Shown here: positions 5,839-23,314 of the stretch, piece after piece
How positions within the stretch are numbered: position 1 is the first letter of the stretch
Layout of the letters: every line of letters starts with the position of its first letter
Source: Ramlibacter sp.
GTDB taxonomy: Bacteria > Pseudomonadota > Gammaproteobacteria > Burkholderiales > Burkholderiaceae_C
Assembly: GCA_028292195.1 (NCBI GenBank)
Contig: JAQGMU010000071.1
Coordinates: 1-32,965, forward strand
DNA length: 32,965 nucleotides
Direction: 5' to 3'
Position numbers and translations under genes: made by a program
Notes under the pieces: generated by a model
What the model saw: only the letters and a program-made list of their open reading frames with translations
Told to the model about the DNA's origin: nothing
Database searches by the model: none

Positions 5839-7796
5839 GGACCGGACCGCTGGGCGAACAGCCCGATCCGCAGAAGGGCCAGCTGAAGGACGGGCTGGCC
5901 GGCGGCGAGCACGTGGCCGCGGTGCTGGACCAGACCTGGTCGGACCCGCCCGGCCTGATCGGCTGGTTCTCCGCCATCAACCACAAGACCATCGCACGCC
6001 GCTTCATCGTCACCACGCTGGTGTTCTTCGCCCTGGGCGGCCTGCTGGCTGGCTGGATGCGCCTGCAACTGGCGCACTCGGGCAATACGCTGATGGGACC
6101 GGACCTGTACAACCAGGTCTTCACCATGCACGGCAGCACGATGATGTTCCTGTTCGCCGTGCCGGTGATGCAGGCCGTGGGCATGTACCTGGTGCCGCTG
6201 ATGGTGGGCGCGCGCAGCGTCGCGTTCCCGCGCATGAATGCCTACGCCTACTGGATCTTCCTGTTCGGCGGGATCATGCTGTACGTGGTGTTCCTGCTGG
6301 ATGCGGGGCCCGACGCCGGCTGGTTCGCCTACGTGCCGCTGTCCGGCCCCGACTACGGCGCCGGCAAGCGCAGCGACTTCTGGGCGCAGATGATCACCTT
6401 CACCGAGGTGTCGGCGCTGCTGGAAGCGGTGGTCATCGTCTGCACCGTGTTCAAGATGCGCGCGCCCGGCATGACGCTCAATCGCATCCCGCTGTACGTG
6501 TGGGCGATGCTGGTCACGGCCTTCATGATCATGTTCGCCATGCCCGCCGTCGCCCTGGCTAGCACGCTGCTGATCATGGACCGCCTGGTCGGCACGCACT
6601 TCTACAACCCGGGCGAGGGCGGCGACGCGTTGCTGTGGCAGCACCTGTTCTGGTTCTTCGGCCATCCCGAGGTCTACCTGATCTTCCTGCCGGGCCTGGG
6701 TTTCATCTCCGCCATCATCCCCACCTTCGCGCGGCGGCCGATGTTCGGCTACACGGCGATGGTGCTGTCGGTCATCGCCACCGGCTTCCTGTCCTTCGGG
6801 CTGTGGGTGCACCACATGTTCGCGACCAATATCCCGGAGCTCGGCAAGACCTTCTTCACCGCGGCCAGCCTATTGATCGCGGTGCCCACCGCGGTGCAGA
6901 TCTTCTGCTGGATCGCGACGCTTTGGACCGGCAAGCTGAACCTGAAGACACCGCTCCTGTACGTGCTGTCCTTTTTCTTCATCCTGGTGATGGGGGGCAT
7001 GACCGGGCTGATGCTGGCCTCGGTCTCGCTCGACACGCAGGTGCACGACACCTACTTCGTCGTGGCGCACCTCCACTACGTGCTGATCGGCGGCGCGGTG
7101 TTCCCCCTGTTCGGCGCCTTCTACTACTGGTTCCCGAAGTTCGTCGGTCGCATGATGTCCGAGCGGCTGGGGCAGTGGAGCTTCTGGCTGATGTTCGCCG
7201 GCTTCAACCTCGCCTTCTTCCCGATGCACCTGCTCGGGCTGCAAGGGATGCCGCGGCGCATGTACACCTACCCCGCCGGCATGGGCTGGGACAACCTGAA
7301 CCTGCTGTCCACCATCGGCGCCATCGTCCTGACCTTCGGCATCCTGCTGACGCTGGTCAACGCGGTGCGCAGCGCGCATGCCGGCGAGCGCGCGCCCGCC
7401 GACCCCTGGGGCGCCGGCACGCTGGAATGGGCGGCCGCCTCGCCGCCGCGCCCGTGCAACTTCGCCGCCATTCCGGTCGTGCATGGCCGCGATCCCCTGT
7501 GGCAGGGCGTGCCGGCCGGGGCGGCGAGCCATGTTTCCGGACTGGCCGCCGACCTGCGCGAGGTGCTGACGACGACGGTGGCCGAAGCGAAGCCGGACGC
7601 GCGCGCGATGTTCCCCGACCCGTCGCCCTGGCCCTTCCTGGCAGCGGTGGCGACCACGGTGCTGTTCATCGGGTCGATCTTCACGCCGTGGGCCGTGGTC
7701 TGGGGTGCGGTGCCGGTGGTGATCACGCTGGTGGCCTGGTTCTGGCCCCCTCAGCGCGAAGCCGCCGAGGAGCTGGCGCTGGAGAAGGTGGCATGA
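5835..7796 (+). CDS. Cytochrome c oxidase subunit I (caa3-type) with C-terminal transmembrane extension
   Basis: WFFGHPEVYLIFLPGLG, HDTYFVVAHLHYVL, TMHGSTMMFLFAVPVM; C-terminal hydrophobic extension; ATGA overlap. Confidence 0.95.
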   Translation: MRTGPLGEQPDPQKGQLKDGLAGGEHVAAVLDQTWSDPPGLIGWFSAINHKTIARRFIVTTLVFFALGGLLAGWMRLQLAHSGNTLMGPDLYNQVFTMHGSTMMFLFAVPVMQAVGMYLVPLMVGARSVAFPRMNAYAYWIFLFGGIMLYVVFLLDAGPDAGWFAYVPLSGPDYGAGKRSDFWAQMITFTEVSALLEAVVIVCTVFKMRAPGMTLNRIPLYVWAMLVTAFMIMFAMPAVALASTLLIMDRLVGTHFYNPGEGGDALLWQHLFWFFGHPEVYLIFLPGLGFISAIIPTFARRPMFGYTAMVLSVIATGFLSFGLWVHHMFATNIPELGKTFFTAASLLIAVPTAVQIFCWIATLWTGKLNLKTPLLYVLSFFFILVMGGMTGLMLASVSLDTQVHDTYFVVAHLHYVLIGGAVFPLFGAFYYWFPKFVGRMMSERLGQWSFWLMFAGFNLAFFPMHLLGLQGMPRRMYTYPAGMGWDNLNLLSTIGAIVLTFGILLTLVNAVRSAHAGERAPADPWGAGTLEWAAASPPRPCNFAAIPVVHGRDPLWQGVPAGAASHVSGLAADLREVLTTTVAEAKPDARAMFPDPSPWPFLAAVATTVLFIGSIFTPWAVVWGAVPVVITLVAWFWPPQREAAEELALEKVA

Positions 7797-8401
7797 ACGA
7801 CACCTCCGCCCGCGCCCTCGACGTCGCGGAACTGCCCACCGTCGTCTTCTCGCACCGCAGCCTGATGTGGTGGGGCACCCTGGGCATGATGGCGATCGAG
7901 GGCACTTTTTTCGGCCTGGCGCTGATGGCCTATTTCTACCTGCGCAGCCACCAGGCCACCTGGCCCATCACCTCGCGGCCGCCGGACCTGCTGTGGGGCA
8001 CGCTCAATACGGTGCTGATGCTGGCGAGCTTCGTTCCGGCGCACCTGGCAAAACGTGCCGCGGAGCGCCTGGACCTGCAGGCCGTGCGCCTGTGGCTGGT
8101 GGTCTGCGTGGCCTTCGGCCTGGCATTCGTCGGCGTCCGCGCGCTGGAGTTCGCCGCGCTCAACGTGCGCTGGGACAGCAGCGCCTACGGCTCCGTGGTG
8201 TGGCTGCTGCTGGGGCTGCACACCACGCACATCGTCACGGACCTGATCGACACGATGGTCCTGACCGCGCTGTTCTATCGCGGCCCGCTGGATGGCAAGC
8301 GCTTCGTCGATGTCAGCGAGAACTGCTTCTACTGGTATTTCGTGGTCGCCACCTGGCTGCCGTTCTACCTGGTGATCTATTGGGGCGCGCGGGCGCCGTA
8401 G
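7793..8401 (+). CDS. Cytochrome c oxidase subunit III-like protein
   Basis: Multi-TM; MAIEGTFFGLALMAYFYLR, LLLGLHTTHIVTDLIDT, CFYWYFVVATWLPFYLVIYW; ATGA overlap. Confidence 0.9.
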   Translation: MNDTSARALDVAELPTVVFSHRSLMWWGTLGMMAIEGTFFGLALMAYFYLRSHQATWPITSRPPDLLWGTLNTVLMLASFVPAHLAKRAAERLDLQAVRLWLVVCVAFGLAFVGVRALEFAALNVRWDSSAYGSVVWLLLGLHTTHIVTDLIDTMVLTALFYRGPLDGKRFVDVSENCFYWYFVVATWLPFYLVIYWGARAP

Positions 8402-16062: not shown

Positions 16063-17133
16063 CTACTCGCCCCCGCTGCCGGCCATGGGCAGCGTGACGA
16101 CGAAGCGGCTGCCGAGGCCGGCGCCAGGGCTGGAAGCCGACACCGTGCCGCCATGCGCCTCGACCAGTTCACGCACCACGGTCAGCCCGAGGCCCAGCCC
16201 CACGCCGTTGAACACCGTCGCATGCAGGTCCTGCACGAAGGGTTCGAACACGCGTGGCAGCGCTTCGGCAGTGATGCCGATGCCGCTGTCGGAAACGGCG
16301 ATCACGACCCACGCGTCCACCAGGTCGACGGACAGCCGGATCTGGCCGCCGTGGGGCGTGTACTTGGAAGCGTTGTCCAGGAGGTTGCTGAAGACCTGCG
16401 CCAGCCGCCCGGGGTCTCCGTCCATGGCCAGGCTGGCAGGCAACTCGGGCCCCGTGAACTCCTGCACGCGCGCGTCCATCGCCGGCCGGCAGGCCTCCAG
16501 CACCTCCGCGAGGATGCCCACCAGGTCGATGCGCTGGCGCTCGATCCGCAGCTTGCCGGTCGCCACGCGCGTCGAATCCAGCAAGTCGCTCACCAGCCGC
16601 GCCATGTGCTTGACCTGCCTTTCGATGATGGCCTGTATCCGGCCCAGGACCAGCGGTTGCTCCGGGATGCGTCCCAGGATGGCGGCGGCGTTGCGGATGG
16701 GCGCCAGGGGGTGGCGCAGCTCGTGCGCCACCAGGGCCAGCAATTCGGTCTGGCGCTGCTGTGCCTGTTCGGCGGCGGCCTGCAGTTCCTGCGCACCGAT
16801 GGCGGCCAGCACCAAGTGCTCGTTGGCTTCGCTCAGCTGCGCGTACCGGCTCTGGTGGTCTGCCAGCGCGCGCTGCCGGGCGGACAGCGTGGCTTCCTGC
16901 ACCGAGCGCGCGCCATCCTCGGCATCGATCTGGGCGCGCAGCGCGGCCAGCACCAATTGCTGGTTGACGGCCAGCAAGGTGCCGCTCGCGCCAAAGCGGC
17001 CCTGGGTCTGCGCGATCTCCGCCTGGAGCCGCGCGAGCTGCTCCTGTGCCTGGCTGATCTGCTCCCGCAGCTGCGTGAGTTCGCGCTGCGCGTCCACCCG
17101 CGCCGTGTCGTCGGGGGTGGACGGGGTGCTCAC
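16063..17133 (-). CDS. Sensor histidine kinase (N-terminal coiled coil)
   Basis: H-box LVAHELRHPLAPIRNAAAIL; N-box QVFSNLLDNASKYTPHGG; VSDSGIGI and GLGLGLTVVRELVEAHGG; GTG start overlapping the stop of the KaiC-like gene. Confidence 0.9.
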   Translation of the reverse strand: MSTPSTPDDTARVDAQRELTQLREQISQAQEQLARLQAEIAQTQGRFGASGTLLAVNQQLVLAALRAQIDAEDGARSVQEATLSARQRALADHQSRYAQLSEANEHLVLAAIGAQELQAAAEQAQQRQTELLALVAHELRHPLAPIRNAAAILGRIPEQPLVLGRIQAIIERQVKHMARLVSDLLDSTRVATGKLRIERQRIDLVGILAEVLEACRPAMDARVQEFTGPELPASLAMDGDPGRLAQVFSNLLDNASKYTPHGGQIRLSVDLVDAWVVIAVSDSGIGITAEALPRVFEPFVQDLHATVFNGVGLGLGLTVVRELVEAHGGTVSASSPGAGLGSRFVVTLPMAGSGGE

Positions 17134-18629
17134 TCTACCGGGTCGGTCCGACCCGTGGCGGCATCCCTGCCTTTGCTCCGGCCGCCAATAGCGGGCGTCG
17201 GCCGGCCGCCCAGCAGGCCCTGCTGGCCGATGAGCATGGCGCCCACCCGCAAGCCGCCGTCATCGATGGTGTACTCGCGCAGCTCATTGGAATGCCTGCT
17301 GCTGCGCACCTTCACCACAGCGATCATGCGGCGCAGCCGGCTCTCGAGTTCGACGTAGCGCTGCACGATGATGGCGTCGGTCAGGAAGGCGGTGCCATAG
17401 GGACTGAAGCGCAGGTCGGTGTACCGGTCTTCCAGCTCGGAGGTCAGCACCACCGTGACGCCGGTGGCCGTCAGGGCCGCCACCAGTCGTGCCAGCTCCT
17501 CGCGGAAGTCCTGGCGGAAGGAGGGCGCGATGGCCAGCTCGAACCCCGACAGCGAGTCGATCACCACGCGGCTGGCGCCCAGGCGCCGGATTTCGGCCAC
17601 CATCAGGCGCAGGATCTCGTCGATCGACAGGTCCGAGGGACGGACATCCACCAGGCTGACGCGCCCCGACTGGATCAGGTCGGCCACCACCGCATTGCGC
17701 GCCCGGTCGGGGCGCTGCTCGAACGCGGCGATCACACCGGTTTCGCCGCAGCGGGCGCCTTCGGCCAGGAAGGCCGCCGCCAGGATGCTCTTGCCCGAGC
17801 CCGACGGGCCGGCGATCAGCAGCGAATAGCCGCGCGGCAGGCCGCCGCCCAGCATCTCGTCCAGGGTGGGCACGCCCATCAGCAGGCGATCGCCTGGCGG
17901 CGCCAGGCGCGGCACGGCGGGGGTGGCAGCGCCGGCCGGGGGGAACACCTCGATGCCGGCCTCGGACATGCGGAAGGTGTACAGGCCCGGCAGCGAGGCC
18001 TGGCCGCGCATCTTCATCACTTGCATCTTGCGCACCATGGAGTTGCGCTCCACGCTCTGGCGCAGCCAGATCAGGCCGTCCGCCACGGTGAACACCGGGT
18101 TGGCATCGGTCTCCACGAAATATTCGCCGATCAGGAAGGTAGTGGCCTGCCAGCTGGTCATCAGCATGCCCAGCTGCTGCACGAAATGCTGGAGGCTGTT
18201 GTGCGTATTGCCCCCGGCGGCGTCGGCCAGCATCACGGAGCGGAAGGAATCGACGAAGACGAAAGCGGGGTTGTGCGCCTCCACCTCGGCCACGACGCGG
18301 GCCAGCACCTTCTCCAGGTCGCCGCTGAGCGTTTCGTCGGCGAGGTTGATGAAACGAACTGACCGGTTGAGTTCTTCGGCTTTGAAGAAGCCGAACTGCT
18401 GCTGGTAGCGCAGCATCTTCAGCGGCGGCTCGCCCAGCACCGTGAGGTAGAGCGCCGGGCGCTCGGGCGTGGCCAGCGAAAACATGATCTGGTGGGCCAG
18501 CGTGGTCTTGCCGCTGCCAGGCTGGCCGGCGATCAGGTTGAACGACAGCTCCGGTAGCCCGCCGCCCAGCACTTCGTCGAAACCCGGGACCCCCGTAGGC
18601 AATCGGTTGATGGTCACTCTGGTGCTCAT
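17130..18629 (-). CDS. KaiC-like double-domain RecA-fold ATPase
   Basis: Two Walker A motifs (GQPGSGKTTL, GPSGSGKSIL); TGVPGFDEVLGGGLP and GVPTLDEMLGGGLPRGYSLLIAG. Confidence 0.92.
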   Translation of the reverse strand: MSTRVTINRLPTGVPGFDEVLGGGLPELSFNLIAGQPGSGKTTLAHQIMFSLATPERPALYLTVLGEPPLKMLRYQQQFGFFKAEELNRSVRFINLADETLSGDLEKVLARVVAEVEAHNPAFVFVDSFRSVMLADAAGGNTHNSLQHFVQQLGMLMTSWQATTFLIGEYFVETDANPVFTVADGLIWLRQSVERNSMVRKMQVMKMRGQASLPGLYTFRMSEAGIEVFPPAGAATPAVPRLAPPGDRLLMGVPTLDEMLGGGLPRGYSLLIAGPSGSGKSILAAAFLAEGARCGETGVIAAFEQRPDRARNAVVADLIQSGRVSLVDVRPSDLSIDEILRLMVAEIRRLGASRVVIDSLSGFELAIAPSFRQDFREELARLVAALTATGVTVVLTSELEDRYTDLRFSPYGTAFLTDAIIVQRYVELESRLRRMIAVVKVRSSRHSNELREYTIDDGGLRVGAMLIGQQGLLGGRPTPAIGGRSKGRDAATGRTDPVE

Positions 18630-19057
18630 GGAGGCGGGTCCTGCGCGGGCGAACCGCTGAAAAACTTGACCCACACCCCGCCGAGCAACTGCCCGGAAAG
18701 CGCGGGACCGATCAGGCTGCCCACCAGGCCGTGGAAGGACAGTAAAAGTGCGGCGCCGGCCGCCGCTGCTTCGGTGCCGCTGCGCCGGACGAGTTCGGCC
18801 CGCAGTGCAGCAAGGTTCATTTCGGCGAGGCTGCCAACGTCCTGGGCCGCAGCCAGCCAGGGATGCGGCGCCGTGGCCAGATGCAGACTGCGCTTGTAAA
18901 GCGCGGCGACACCGCGCTGCCCTATCACTGGGGCCAGGGCGGCGACGATCTGCCGCCAGGCCGAATCGACCATGTCCGCCACCTGGCCCGCGCTGGCGCC
19001 TTCCCTGACTCGCTGCGAGAGGAAACTCTGGATGGGAGGCGCGGCTGGGCTATCCAT
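18626..19057 (-). CDS. Unknown protein, first gene of the KaiC-like / histidine kinase operon
   Basis: 143 aa; ATGA overlap with the KaiC-like gene. Confidence 0.75.
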   Translation of the reverse strand: MDSPAAPPIQSFLSQRVREGASAGQVADMVDSAWRQIVAALAPVIGQRGVAALYKRSLHLATAPHPWLAAAQDVGSLAEMNLAALRAELVRRSGTEAAAAGAALLLSFHGLVGSLIGPALSGQLLGGVWVKFFSGSPAQDPPP

Positions 19058-19817: not shown

Positions 19818-22091
19818 CTAAGCGCCTGCCGGCGCCGCCGCCGTGATGCGCCACCACGCCGGCAGCAGTTCCCGCACCGCGGGCCGGGCAAAGCGGTCGT
19901 CGATCAGGTAGACGATGCCCTTGTCCTCCTGCGTCCGGATCACGCGGCCCGCCGCCTGGACCACCTTCTGGATGCCCGGGTACAGGTAGGTGTAGTCGTA
20001 GCCGGAGCCGAAAACCCCTTGCAGGCAGGCCTTGAGCTGCTCGTTCCTGGGATTCACCTGGGGCAGTCCCAGGGTGGCGACAAAGGCGCCCACCAGCCTG
20101 TCGCCGCGCAGGTCGATTCCCTCGCCGAAGCTGCCGCCCAGCACCGCGAAGCCGACACCCGCCCCGCCGGGCGCGAAGCGCTCGAGAAACCCCTGGCGCT
20201 GGCCCTCGTCCATGCCGCGCGCCTGCGCCCACATCGGGACGGTGGGGAAACGCTGCGCGAATTCCGCTGCCACCAGGTCGAGATAGTCGAAGCTGCTGAA
20301 GAAAGCCAGGTAGTTGCCGGCCTGCGCTTCGAACTGGTCCGCGATGAGCCTGGCGATGGGCGTGGCGGAGCGTTGCCGATCGGGATAACGCGTGGAAATC
20401 CTGCTGACCACGTGCACCTTGAGTTGATCGGCGCTGAAGGGCGAGTCCACGTCGATCCAGGCGGCATTGCCAGGGAGGCCCAGCATGTCCATGTAGTAGC
20501 GCGGCGGGCTGAGCGTTGCTGAAAACAGCGTGACCGACCGTGTGGCGGCGAAGCGTTGCTTCAGGAAAGGCGCGGGAATCAGGTTCTGGATGCGAACCGT
20601 AGCCGCGGGCTTGCCGAGGGCGCCGGCCTGGTCCGTCCATTCGAGCACCGAATGGGAGCCGAAGGATTCGGCGAGACGCTGGAAACCCAGGATGTCGAAG
20701 TAGGCCTGCTGCAGCGGGCCGTCGGCCGAGCCGGGCGCTGCTTCGGCGAAATGGGTCTCCAGCGCGGTACCGGCTTGCTTGAGCGCCGTCATGAAGGCGG
20801 CCGGCAGCGCGTCCAGCATGCCGTCGGCCTGTGCCTTGCGCAGCACGTTCCAGCCGCGGTTGACCTTGTCCAGGGCCGTCCGGACGGCCGCCGGCGCCAG
20901 CGATCGCACGGCGCGCAGCGAGGCCTGGCTGAGGCCCGCCGAGTACATCGCGCGGGCCCGCTCGACCAGGTTGTGCGCTTCGTCGACCAGCACGCCGACG
21001 CGCAGCTCGTTGCCCACCGTCATGGCGTGCAGCATGGCGCTGCCATCGAAGAAGTAGTTGTAGTCGCCGACGACCAGGTCCGCCCAGCGGGCAACTTCCT
21101 GGCCGAGGTAGTAGGGACAGACCTGGTGCCGCAGGGCCACGCCGCGCAGCGCCGCGCCGTCCATGACGCCCGCCTCCAGGCTTTCGCTGCGCGCGGCCGG
21201 CAGCCGATCGTAGAAGCCCTTGGCCAGCGGGCAGGAGTCGCCATGGCAGGCCTTGTCGCGGTGCTCGCAGGCCTTGTCCCGCGCCGTCAGCTCCAGCACC
21301 CGCAGGCCAGGTGCGGCGGCGCTGCTTCCCATCAGCGCCGCAGCATCCAGTGCCATCCGCCGGCCGGTCGACTTCGCCGTCAGGTAGAAGACCTTGTCGA
21401 GGCCGTGGGGCTTCGCGGCCTTGAGCATGGCGAACACGGTGGCGGCGGTCTTGCCGATGCCGGTGGGCGCCTGGGCCAAGACGCAGCGGCCCGTGGCGGC
21501 GCCCCGGTAGACCGATTCGGCGAGCTCGCGCTGCCCGGTGCGGAAGGTCGGATGCGGAAAGGCCAGCGCCGCCAGGGCCTGGTCCCTGCCGCCGCGGTGT
21601 TCCAGTTCCCGCTCGGCCCATGCCAGGAAGTCGCGGCAGCGGGCTTCGAAGAAATCCCGCAGGGATTCGGCGGAGTGGGTTTCGACGAAGGTCGTCTCCT
21701 GCTGGGTGGCGATGTCGAAGTACACCAAGGCCAGGTTCATTTCGCCCAGGCCGCGCGCCTGGCAAAGGAGCCAGCCGTAGACCTTCGCCTGGGCCCAGTG
21801 CAAATGGCGATGGTTGGCCGGCTGCTTGCCCAGGTCGCCGCGATGCGTCTTGATCTCCTCCAGGCGATTGGGCACCGGGTCGTAGCCATCGGCGCGGCCG
21901 CGCACCGCTAGGTGCTCGAATTCTCCCTGCAGGCTGATCTCGGTCTCGTAGAGCGGGCCGCGGCGGCCGGCGACCAGCAGGTGGCCTGCCATGCCCTCCT
22001 GCGCGCTGGGCGTGGGGGTGAACCGCAGATCCAGGTCGCCGCGCCTGGCGGTGAACTCGCACAGGGTGCGAACGGCTACGGAATACGGCAT
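19818..22091 (-). CDS. XPD/DinG-type Fe-S DNA helicase with N-terminal PD-(D/E)XK (RecB-like) nuclease domain
   Basis: GRADGYDPVPNRLEEIKT and HWAQAKVYGWL (QxxxY); Walker A APTGIGKTAATVFAML; four Cys (ACEHRDKACHGDSC...VCPYY); DEAH; QAAGRVIRTQEDKGIVYLIDDRF. Confidence 0.88.
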   Translation of the reverse strand: MPYSVAVRTLCEFTARRGDLDLRFTPTPSAQEGMAGHLLVAGRRGPLYETEISLQGEFEHLAVRGRADGYDPVPNRLEEIKTHRGDLGKQPANHRHLHWAQAKVYGWLLCQARGLGEMNLALVYFDIATQQETTFVETHSAESLRDFFEARCRDFLAWAERELEHRGGRDQALAALAFPHPTFRTGQRELAESVYRGAATGRCVLAQAPTGIGKTAATVFAMLKAAKPHGLDKVFYLTAKSTGRRMALDAAALMGSSAAAPGLRVLELTARDKACEHRDKACHGDSCPLAKGFYDRLPAARSESLEAGVMDGAALRGVALRHQVCPYYLGQEVARWADLVVGDYNYFFDGSAMLHAMTVGNELRVGVLVDEAHNLVERARAMYSAGLSQASLRAVRSLAPAAVRTALDKVNRGWNVLRKAQADGMLDALPAAFMTALKQAGTALETHFAEAAPGSADGPLQQAYFDILGFQRLAESFGSHSVLEWTDQAGALGKPAATVRIQNLIPAPFLKQRFAATRSVTLFSATLSPPRYYMDMLGLPGNAAWIDVDSPFSADQLKVHVVSRISTRYPDRQRSATPIARLIADQFEAQAGNYLAFFSSFDYLDLVAAEFAQRFPTVPMWAQARGMDEGQRQGFLERFAPGGAGVGFAVLGGSFGEGIDLRGDRLVGAFVATLGLPQVNPRNEQLKACLQGVFGSGYDYTYLYPGIQKVVQAAGRVIRTQEDKGIVYLIDDRFARPAVRELLPAWWRITAAAPAGA

Positions 22092-22112: not shown

Positions 22113-22367
22113 TCAGTCGGGAACGTAGCGCGAACGGAACTTGACCGCGTCGGCCTCCAGTTCGAAGGTCACCAGCTGGCCGTTCTTGCCGTCGGCCAGG
22201 CGATGCGCGGCGAACAGGGACCACTGGCCCCGCAGGTTGTAGCTGGGCGGGTCGACCAGGGCATAGGGATCCGGAACGAAGACCTCGTGCTCGAAGATCT
22301 CGCGGACGCGGTTGCGCGGCGACGGGAAGAGCTTGTAGAGCTCGGTGGTGATGGTCTTTTCGGGCAT
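22113..22367 (-). CDS. Hypothetical protein
   Basis: MPEKTITTELYKLFPSPRNRVREIFEHEVFVPDPYALVDPPSYNLRGQWSLFAAHRLADGKNGQLVTFELEADAVKFRSRYVPD. Confidence 0.6.
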   Translation of the reverse strand: MPEKTITTELYKLFPSPRNRVREIFEHEVFVPDPYALVDPPSYNLRGQWSLFAAHRLADGKNGQLVTFELEADAVKFRSRYVPD

Positions 22368-22403: not shown

Positions 22404-22688
22404 TCAGCGACCGCGTTCTCCAACGGGGTGAGCGAAGAAGGCCAGCTTCCCGGCCCGCGGCAGCGCCTTGAGCAGGAGCTCGGCACGCAGCGCGTCGCCT
22501 TTCGACCCGTACTCCCGGGCGGCGAGGAGACGCAGGGGCGGCCACGCGCGGGTGAACTTTGCGCCCCGGCCGAACAAGTGCTGGAAGTAGCGCTGCTCCA
22601 CGTCGACCGCGATGCCTGCGTAGTAGCGGCCGCCTTCGCATTCGAGGAGGTACAGCCAGTACGGGAGCGCCGGCGTACGGACGCTCAC
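22404..22688 (-). CDS. GIY-YIG nuclease superfamily protein (YhbQ/UPF0213-like)
   Basis: WLYLLECEGGRYYAGIAVDVEQRYFQHLFGRGAKFTRAWPPLRLL...GSKGDALRAELLLKAL; GTG start overlapping the upstream stop. Confidence 0.8.
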   Translation of the reverse strand: MSVRTPALPYWLYLLECEGGRYYAGIAVDVEQRYFQHLFGRGAKFTRAWPPLRLLAAREYGSKGDALRAELLLKALPRAGKLAFFAHPVGERGR

Positions 22689-23314
22689 TGTTCGCGCAAG
22701 GCCTGGAAGTAGCCCTGGATCGCCTTGGGCAAGGCCTTGCGCTGGCACCGCTGCAACTTCATCAGCAAGCCGTGCGGGGCGTCGTCGACCTCGTACTCCC
22801 GCCGGATGTCACCCTGGATCCGGGACAGCAGCGCGGCGGCCACCTCGGCGTCCGCCATTGCCCGGTGAGCCCGTCCCGCGGAAGGAAGGGAGTGAAAGGC
22901 CGCCAGCGACCCGAGGCGATAGCTGCCGGCCTGCGGATAGAGCCGGCGCGACAGCAGCATGGTGCAGGCGAACGAATGATCCGTCTTCGCGTCCTCGCCC
23001 AGGCGCCCCAGTTCCGCGGCCCAGAAGCGCTGGTCGAAGGAAGCGTTGTGCGCAACCAGCGGCGCGTCCTGCACGAACCGGGCCGCCTGCCCCATGACCT
23101 CGGCGGCCGGCGGCGCGGCCCGGACCATCTCGTTGCTGATGCCGGTGTAGTCCTCGATGAACCGGGAGATGCGCACTCCCGCGTTCATCAGCGACTGGAA
23201 CCGGGCAACGACTCTCGTTCCCTCCAGCAGCACGATGGCAATCTCGGTCGCCCGGTCGCCCATGGAAGGGGACAAGCCGGTGGTCTCGAAGTCGATGACG
23301 GCAATGGGGTGCAT
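22685..23314 (-). CDS. DEDDh 3'-5' exonuclease (DnaQ-like)
   Basis: AVIDFETTGLSP, VAHNASFDQRFW, HRAMADAEVAAALL. Confidence 0.88.
   Translation of the reverse strand: MHPIAVIDFETTGLSPSMGDRATEIAIVLLEGTRVVARFQSLMNAGVRISRFIEDYTGISNEMVRAAPPAAEVMGQAARFVQDAPLVAHNASFDQRFWAAELGRLGEDAKTDHSFACTMLLSRRLYPQAGSYRLGSLAAFHSLPSAGRAHRAMADAEVAAALLSRIQGDIRREYEVDDAPHGLLMKLQRCQRKALPKAIQGYFQALREQ

Follow-up and report, generated by a model that had tools for sequence, protein, structure and literature searches.

A likely EndoDinG-type repair helicase-nuclease in Ramlibacter, with relatives paired to FAN1 in other Pseudomonadota

What does a protein that joins a nuclease domain to an XPD/DinG-type Fe-S helicase do in Ramlibacter, and does it serve DNA repair or defense? 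We analyzed one such gene in a stretch of 32,965 nucleotides (the window), where it occupies 19818..22091 of the minus strand, the strand of every window feature given below. It begins with an ATG at 22091, ends with a stop codon at 19818-19820, and encodes 757 amino acids. The initial annotation had placed an open reading frame at exactly these coordinates; there is one open frame, with its ATG exactly at that base, ruling out an error of frame or start. The closest GTDB homologues are from Ramlibacter (81 to 83% identity), and the protein falls within a Ramlibacter clade in our tree. In our judgment the protein is likely a chromosomal EndoDinG, a helicase-nuclease of DNA repair.

Residues 187 to 757 (19821..21533) form an XPD/DinG-type SF2 helicase, recognized both by Pfam (DEAD_2, 2e-14; Helicase_C_2, 5e-36, the latter at residues 586 to 748, 19848..20336) and by fold. 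In an alignment of 110 relatives, the Walker A motif (APTGIGKT, residues 208 to 215, 21447..21470) and the DEAH box (residues 370 to 373, 20973..20984) are intact. The four cysteines previously picked out as Fe-S candidates, C275, C282, C287, and C325, lie in a putative Fe-S domain (21117..21269), and each is invariant (110/110); by analogy with the family, they would bind an Fe-S cluster. A full-length model (pLDDT, 89.8; pTM, 0.88) aligns with PDB entry 9KQH across almost its full extent (E, 1e-61; TM, 0.82/0.84), and its best matches after that entry are XPD, Escherichia coli DinG, and CasDinG.

The N-terminal region was examined by structure prediction, one of the checks that had been proposed for it. 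Pfam returns no match within residues 1 to 188 of the window protein; of the 62 aligned members, 6 match its PDDEXK_1 family (best, 1.8e-5), and a relative from Acetoanaerobium does so above the cutoff. An AlphaFold2 model of residues 1 to 188, built with 62 sequences, has a pLDDT of 89.7 and helices and strands ordered as in PD-(D/E)XK nucleases, a fold that spans residues 1 to 175 (21567..22091). Foldseek searches of the PDB with this model place 9KQH at the top (2.5e-15) and the Cas4 protein SSO0001 next (7e-7), with further matches to human EXO5, E. coli RecE, AddAB, and lambda exonuclease. For the nucleases other than 9KQH, TM scores of about 0.5 indicate moderate similarity, the level to be expected between remote members of the PD-(D/E)XK fold.

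The catalytic motifs agree with this fold. The D / ExK / QxxxY pattern originally read from the sequence is present as GRADGYD (residues 65 to 71, 21879..21899) with predicted catalytic residue D68, EEIKT (residues 78 to 82, 21846..21860) with predicted catalytic residues E79 and K81, and QAKVYG (residues 101 to 106), whose QxxxY portion, QAKVY, covers residues 101 to 105 (21777..21791). These residues (D68, E79, K81, Q101, and Y105) show no variation among the 110 aligned relatives, nor do H37 (21981..21983) and E51 (21939..21941), two nuclease-site residues with roles described in PMC11981726 that were missing from the initial annotation. All seven are kept in Bacillota and Legionella relatives at 27 to 38% identity, and both the nuclease residues and the cysteines are kept in relatives from Acetoanaerobium, Enterococcus, and Legionella and in a sequence from a fecal "phage" record. 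Such invariance, together with the fold, rules out a nuclease motif that arose by chance. Sequence and both models bear out a RecB/Cas4-type PD-(D/E)XK domain ahead of an XPD/DinG Fe-S helicase, and the structural outcome named at the outset as a refutation, an N-terminal domain lacking that fold, was not seen.

Genomic context in other taxa hints at a pathway. Among 398 genomes sampled across Pseudomonadota, the gene is present in 52 and FAN1 (detected by FAN1_HTH) in 66; 41 of the 52 carriers have both, and in 40 of these 41 the immediate upstream gene, in the same orientation, is FAN1. This neighbor is identified as FAN1 by its three domains, FAN1_HTH, FANC_SAP, and VRR_NUC. The co-occurrence has an odds ratio of 48 (p, 2e-28) in a Fisher test that ignores relatedness, with 20 of the 41 genomes coming from one family; even so, about eight families have the pair. 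FAN1 is also next door at 50 of the 67 loci from GTDB that lie outside the Ramlibacter clade (L022 and 49 others among L016 to L082, from Pseudomonas and other Pseudomonadota), and 39 of these 50 show a 4-nt overlap between the stop codon of FAN1 and the first aligned codon of the nuclease-helicase gene, as in L022:4349-6004 (FAN1) and 6001-8271 (nuclease-helicase). Such an overlap is the usual sign of translational coupling, and EndoDinG is probably cotranscribed with FAN1 in most of the sampled Pseudomonadota carriers. Ten Pseudomonas genomes in which the two genes are apart still have one of each, several Burkholderiales carry the nuclease-helicase without FAN1, and nearly all sampled genomes hold the gene in one copy and in one place. 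Biochemical studies have addressed bacterial FAN1 as a nuclease that unhooks crosslinks (by the titles of Gwon 2014 and Jin 2018, as cited in PMC12796719). Our literature search, among papers available without subscription, found no report of a FAN1-EndoDinG pair, and we claim no priority for it. The conserved overlapping pair offers a direct, cheap genetic handle on FAN1 and EndoDinG.

The window's own genus differs in this respect. FAN1 is found in 0 of 59 Ramlibacter genomes, VRR_NUC, sought as a sign of FAN1, is absent from the window's own genome (82% complete), and FAN1 directly upstream is not seen in the window or its genus. Since Ramlibacter lacks FAN1, the enzyme has to be capable of working in its absence. 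The gene itself was found in 36 of 59 genomes of Ramlibacter, which makes it dispensable, and its neighborhoods vary among Ramlibacter species and are poorly conserved. With FAN1 absent from the genus and the neighborhood so variable, the repair partner is taken from other genera. Long Bacillota branches leave the root of the tree unsure, and gain and loss of the FAN1 linkage are therefore left unordered.

Upstream of the helicase gene in the window, on the same strand, lie an 84-amino-acid open reading frame of no assigned family (22113-22367, directly upstream), a GIY-YIG protein (22404-22748), and a DEDD exonuclease (22685-23314). We do not claim that these three genes and the helicase form a functional operon; the set is not conserved in other Ramlibacter. 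The 84-amino-acid frame recurs near the helicase gene, in a different order, at Ramlibacter/Caenimonas loci (L003:5938-6189, L117:421-672, and L010:1250-1501). Downstream of the helicase, a KaiC-like ATPase (17130-18674) has two matched stretches and two P-loops. Promoter and terminator scans gave the same counts as in shuffled sequence.

A distant relative (27% identity) is carried by the Legionella lytica plasmid pLlyPCM2298_2 (L125), where it sits between Ku and a fused DEDD-exonuclease/GIY-YIG protein directly downstream (L125:5426-6988), with two Y-family polymerases also beside it. The L125 genes form a compact repair-like cluster (UdgX, Ku, the helicase-nuclease relative, the DEDD-exonuclease/GIY-YIG protein, DinB, and a Y-family polymerase). 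The likeness between the Legionella and window loci in their DEDD-exonuclease/GIY-YIG neighbors may be coincidence.

How might such a protein work? XPD/DinG motors move 5′ to 3′ on single-stranded DNA, and Cas4/EXO5/RecB nucleases cut single strands. On this family background, 5′-to-3′ polarity and endonuclease activity would be expected: the motor, braced by its Fe-S cluster, would travel 5′ to 3′ on single-stranded DNA and open forks, flaps, or damaged duplex, and the Cas4/EXO5-like PD-(D/E)XK domain would cut the strand that the motor exposes. FAN1 substrates are 5′ flaps and interstrand crosslinks, and the linkage suggests that the main ones of EndoDinG in Pseudomonas and its relatives overlap them, while in Ramlibacter EndoDinG may act alone or with other nucleases. 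Because its relatives appear to be cotranscribed with a nuclease able to unhook interstrand crosslinks, EndoDinG probably has a role in crosslink or flap repair, of which we infer the crosslink part. In eukaryotic crosslink repair, FAN1 and the XPD-family helicase FANCJ belong to one pathway. Our tentative suggestion is that EndoDinG and FAN1 could be a parallel to it, a module of two genes for crosslink repair in bacteria: FAN1 would incise and EndoDinG would unwind and trim, with Ramlibacter keeping the helicase-nuclease half alone. As for the proposal of "repair or defense" made at the outset, the FAN1 operon in related genera and the distant relative beside Ku and a DEDD-exonuclease/GIY-YIG gene favor repair; no feature near the window gene suggests defense, and csf2 was not found in its genome.

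Defense would mean an anti-phage or anti-plasmid factor whose helicase unwinds invading DNA and whose nuclease shreds it, like other helicase-nuclease defense proteins. Such a role would suit the gene's patchy occurrence in the genus and varied neighborhoods, the presence of some relatives on plasmids or in phage-labeled records, and a weak fold likeness to the defense protein Hna (TM, 0.4). The PADLOC typeIV_DinG model also matches the helicase part (376 bits), but the match covers only the shared DinG core, and csf2 (TIGR03115) was not found in the window's genome (82% complete), which led us to reject the CasDinG/type IV CRISPR identity that the match had brought up. No defense gene was recognized among the neighbors examined, the phage-labeled matches are unannotated records whose source is possibly host DNA, and the fixed single-copy placement, typically in a FAN1 operon, further argues against defense, which we consider improbable. 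Slightly less probable again is that the PD-(D/E)XK domain no longer cuts and now helps the helicase as a DNA-binding or positioning module. Where the window protein has D68, 9KQH, the only solved relative, carries alanine; this alanine is more likely an engineered change, however, and aspartate occupies the position in every other relative examined, distant ones included. The catalytic positions are all invariant in the 110 relatives, and a dead domain would not keep them. Endonuclease activity has also been reported, as unpublished data only, for the Bdellovibrio protein (PMC11981726).

A general end-resection or fork-processing enzyme, like Dna2 or AddAB and with no special link to crosslinks, is a more serious candidate than either of these, if still a rather unlikely one. 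The nuclease fold is nearest those of Cas4, EXO5, RecE, and AddAB, the gene occurs without FAN1 in Ramlibacter as in several other Burkholderiales, and Ku is among the Legionella neighbors, all of which would fit such an enzyme; the tight association with FAN1 seen across several families instead suggests a more specific substrate. Compared with EndoDinG as a DNA-repair helicase-nuclease, these alternatives are less well supported or differ in pathway alone.

Nuclease-helicase fusions of this kind are already known, both as a named subgroup, EndoDinG, and as a solved homologue, 9KQH. E. coli DinG and YoaA share the XPD-family Fe-S helicase core with the window protein (fold match to 6FWR) but, unlike it, have no N-terminal nuclease, and the window protein scores well below the NCBIfam full-length cutoffs of these canonical families (YoaA, 99.9 of 680 bits; DinG, 69.3 of 598 bits). 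ExoDinG (Staphylococcus aureus DinG, 8ZEF) likewise combines an N-terminal nuclease with a DinG-like helicase. That nuclease is a 3′-5′ exonuclease (PMC12345164), of DEDD/DnaQ type by NCBIfam naming and unrelated in fold to the PD-(D/E)XK domain found at the N terminus here. CasDinG of type IV CRISPR systems has the same DinG-type helicase core but is CRISPR linked and lacks the four-cysteine cluster, whereas the window protein has four cysteines.

EndoDinG is among the ten DinG-like subgroups named in a recent review (Cheng 2025, PMC11981726), which describes it as having an N-terminal PD-(D/E)XK domain, in which H, E, D, E, and K are conserved, and a four-cysteine Fe-S helicase. The PD-(D/E)XK domain, four-cysteine Fe-S domain, and DinG-type motor of its representative, the DinG of Bdellovibrio bacteriovorus HD100, are common to the window protein, which shows every EndoDinG feature that we tested in sequence and fold. 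The review makes no mention of a FAN1 linkage ("VRR" occurs 0 times in its text), and our literature search found no published cellular role for EndoDinG. Entry 9KQH, released on 2025-12-03, is a crystal structure of Finegoldia magna DinG with single-stranded DNA and ADPNP; we found no relevant paper on it or on Finegoldia DinG. This Bacillota protein is a full-length homologue of the window protein (E, 3e-105), nuclease domain included, at about 30% identity. As an architecture, the window protein thus adds one member to a named and structurally solved subgroup, and the FAN1 linkage, found outside this window, is the lead worth following.
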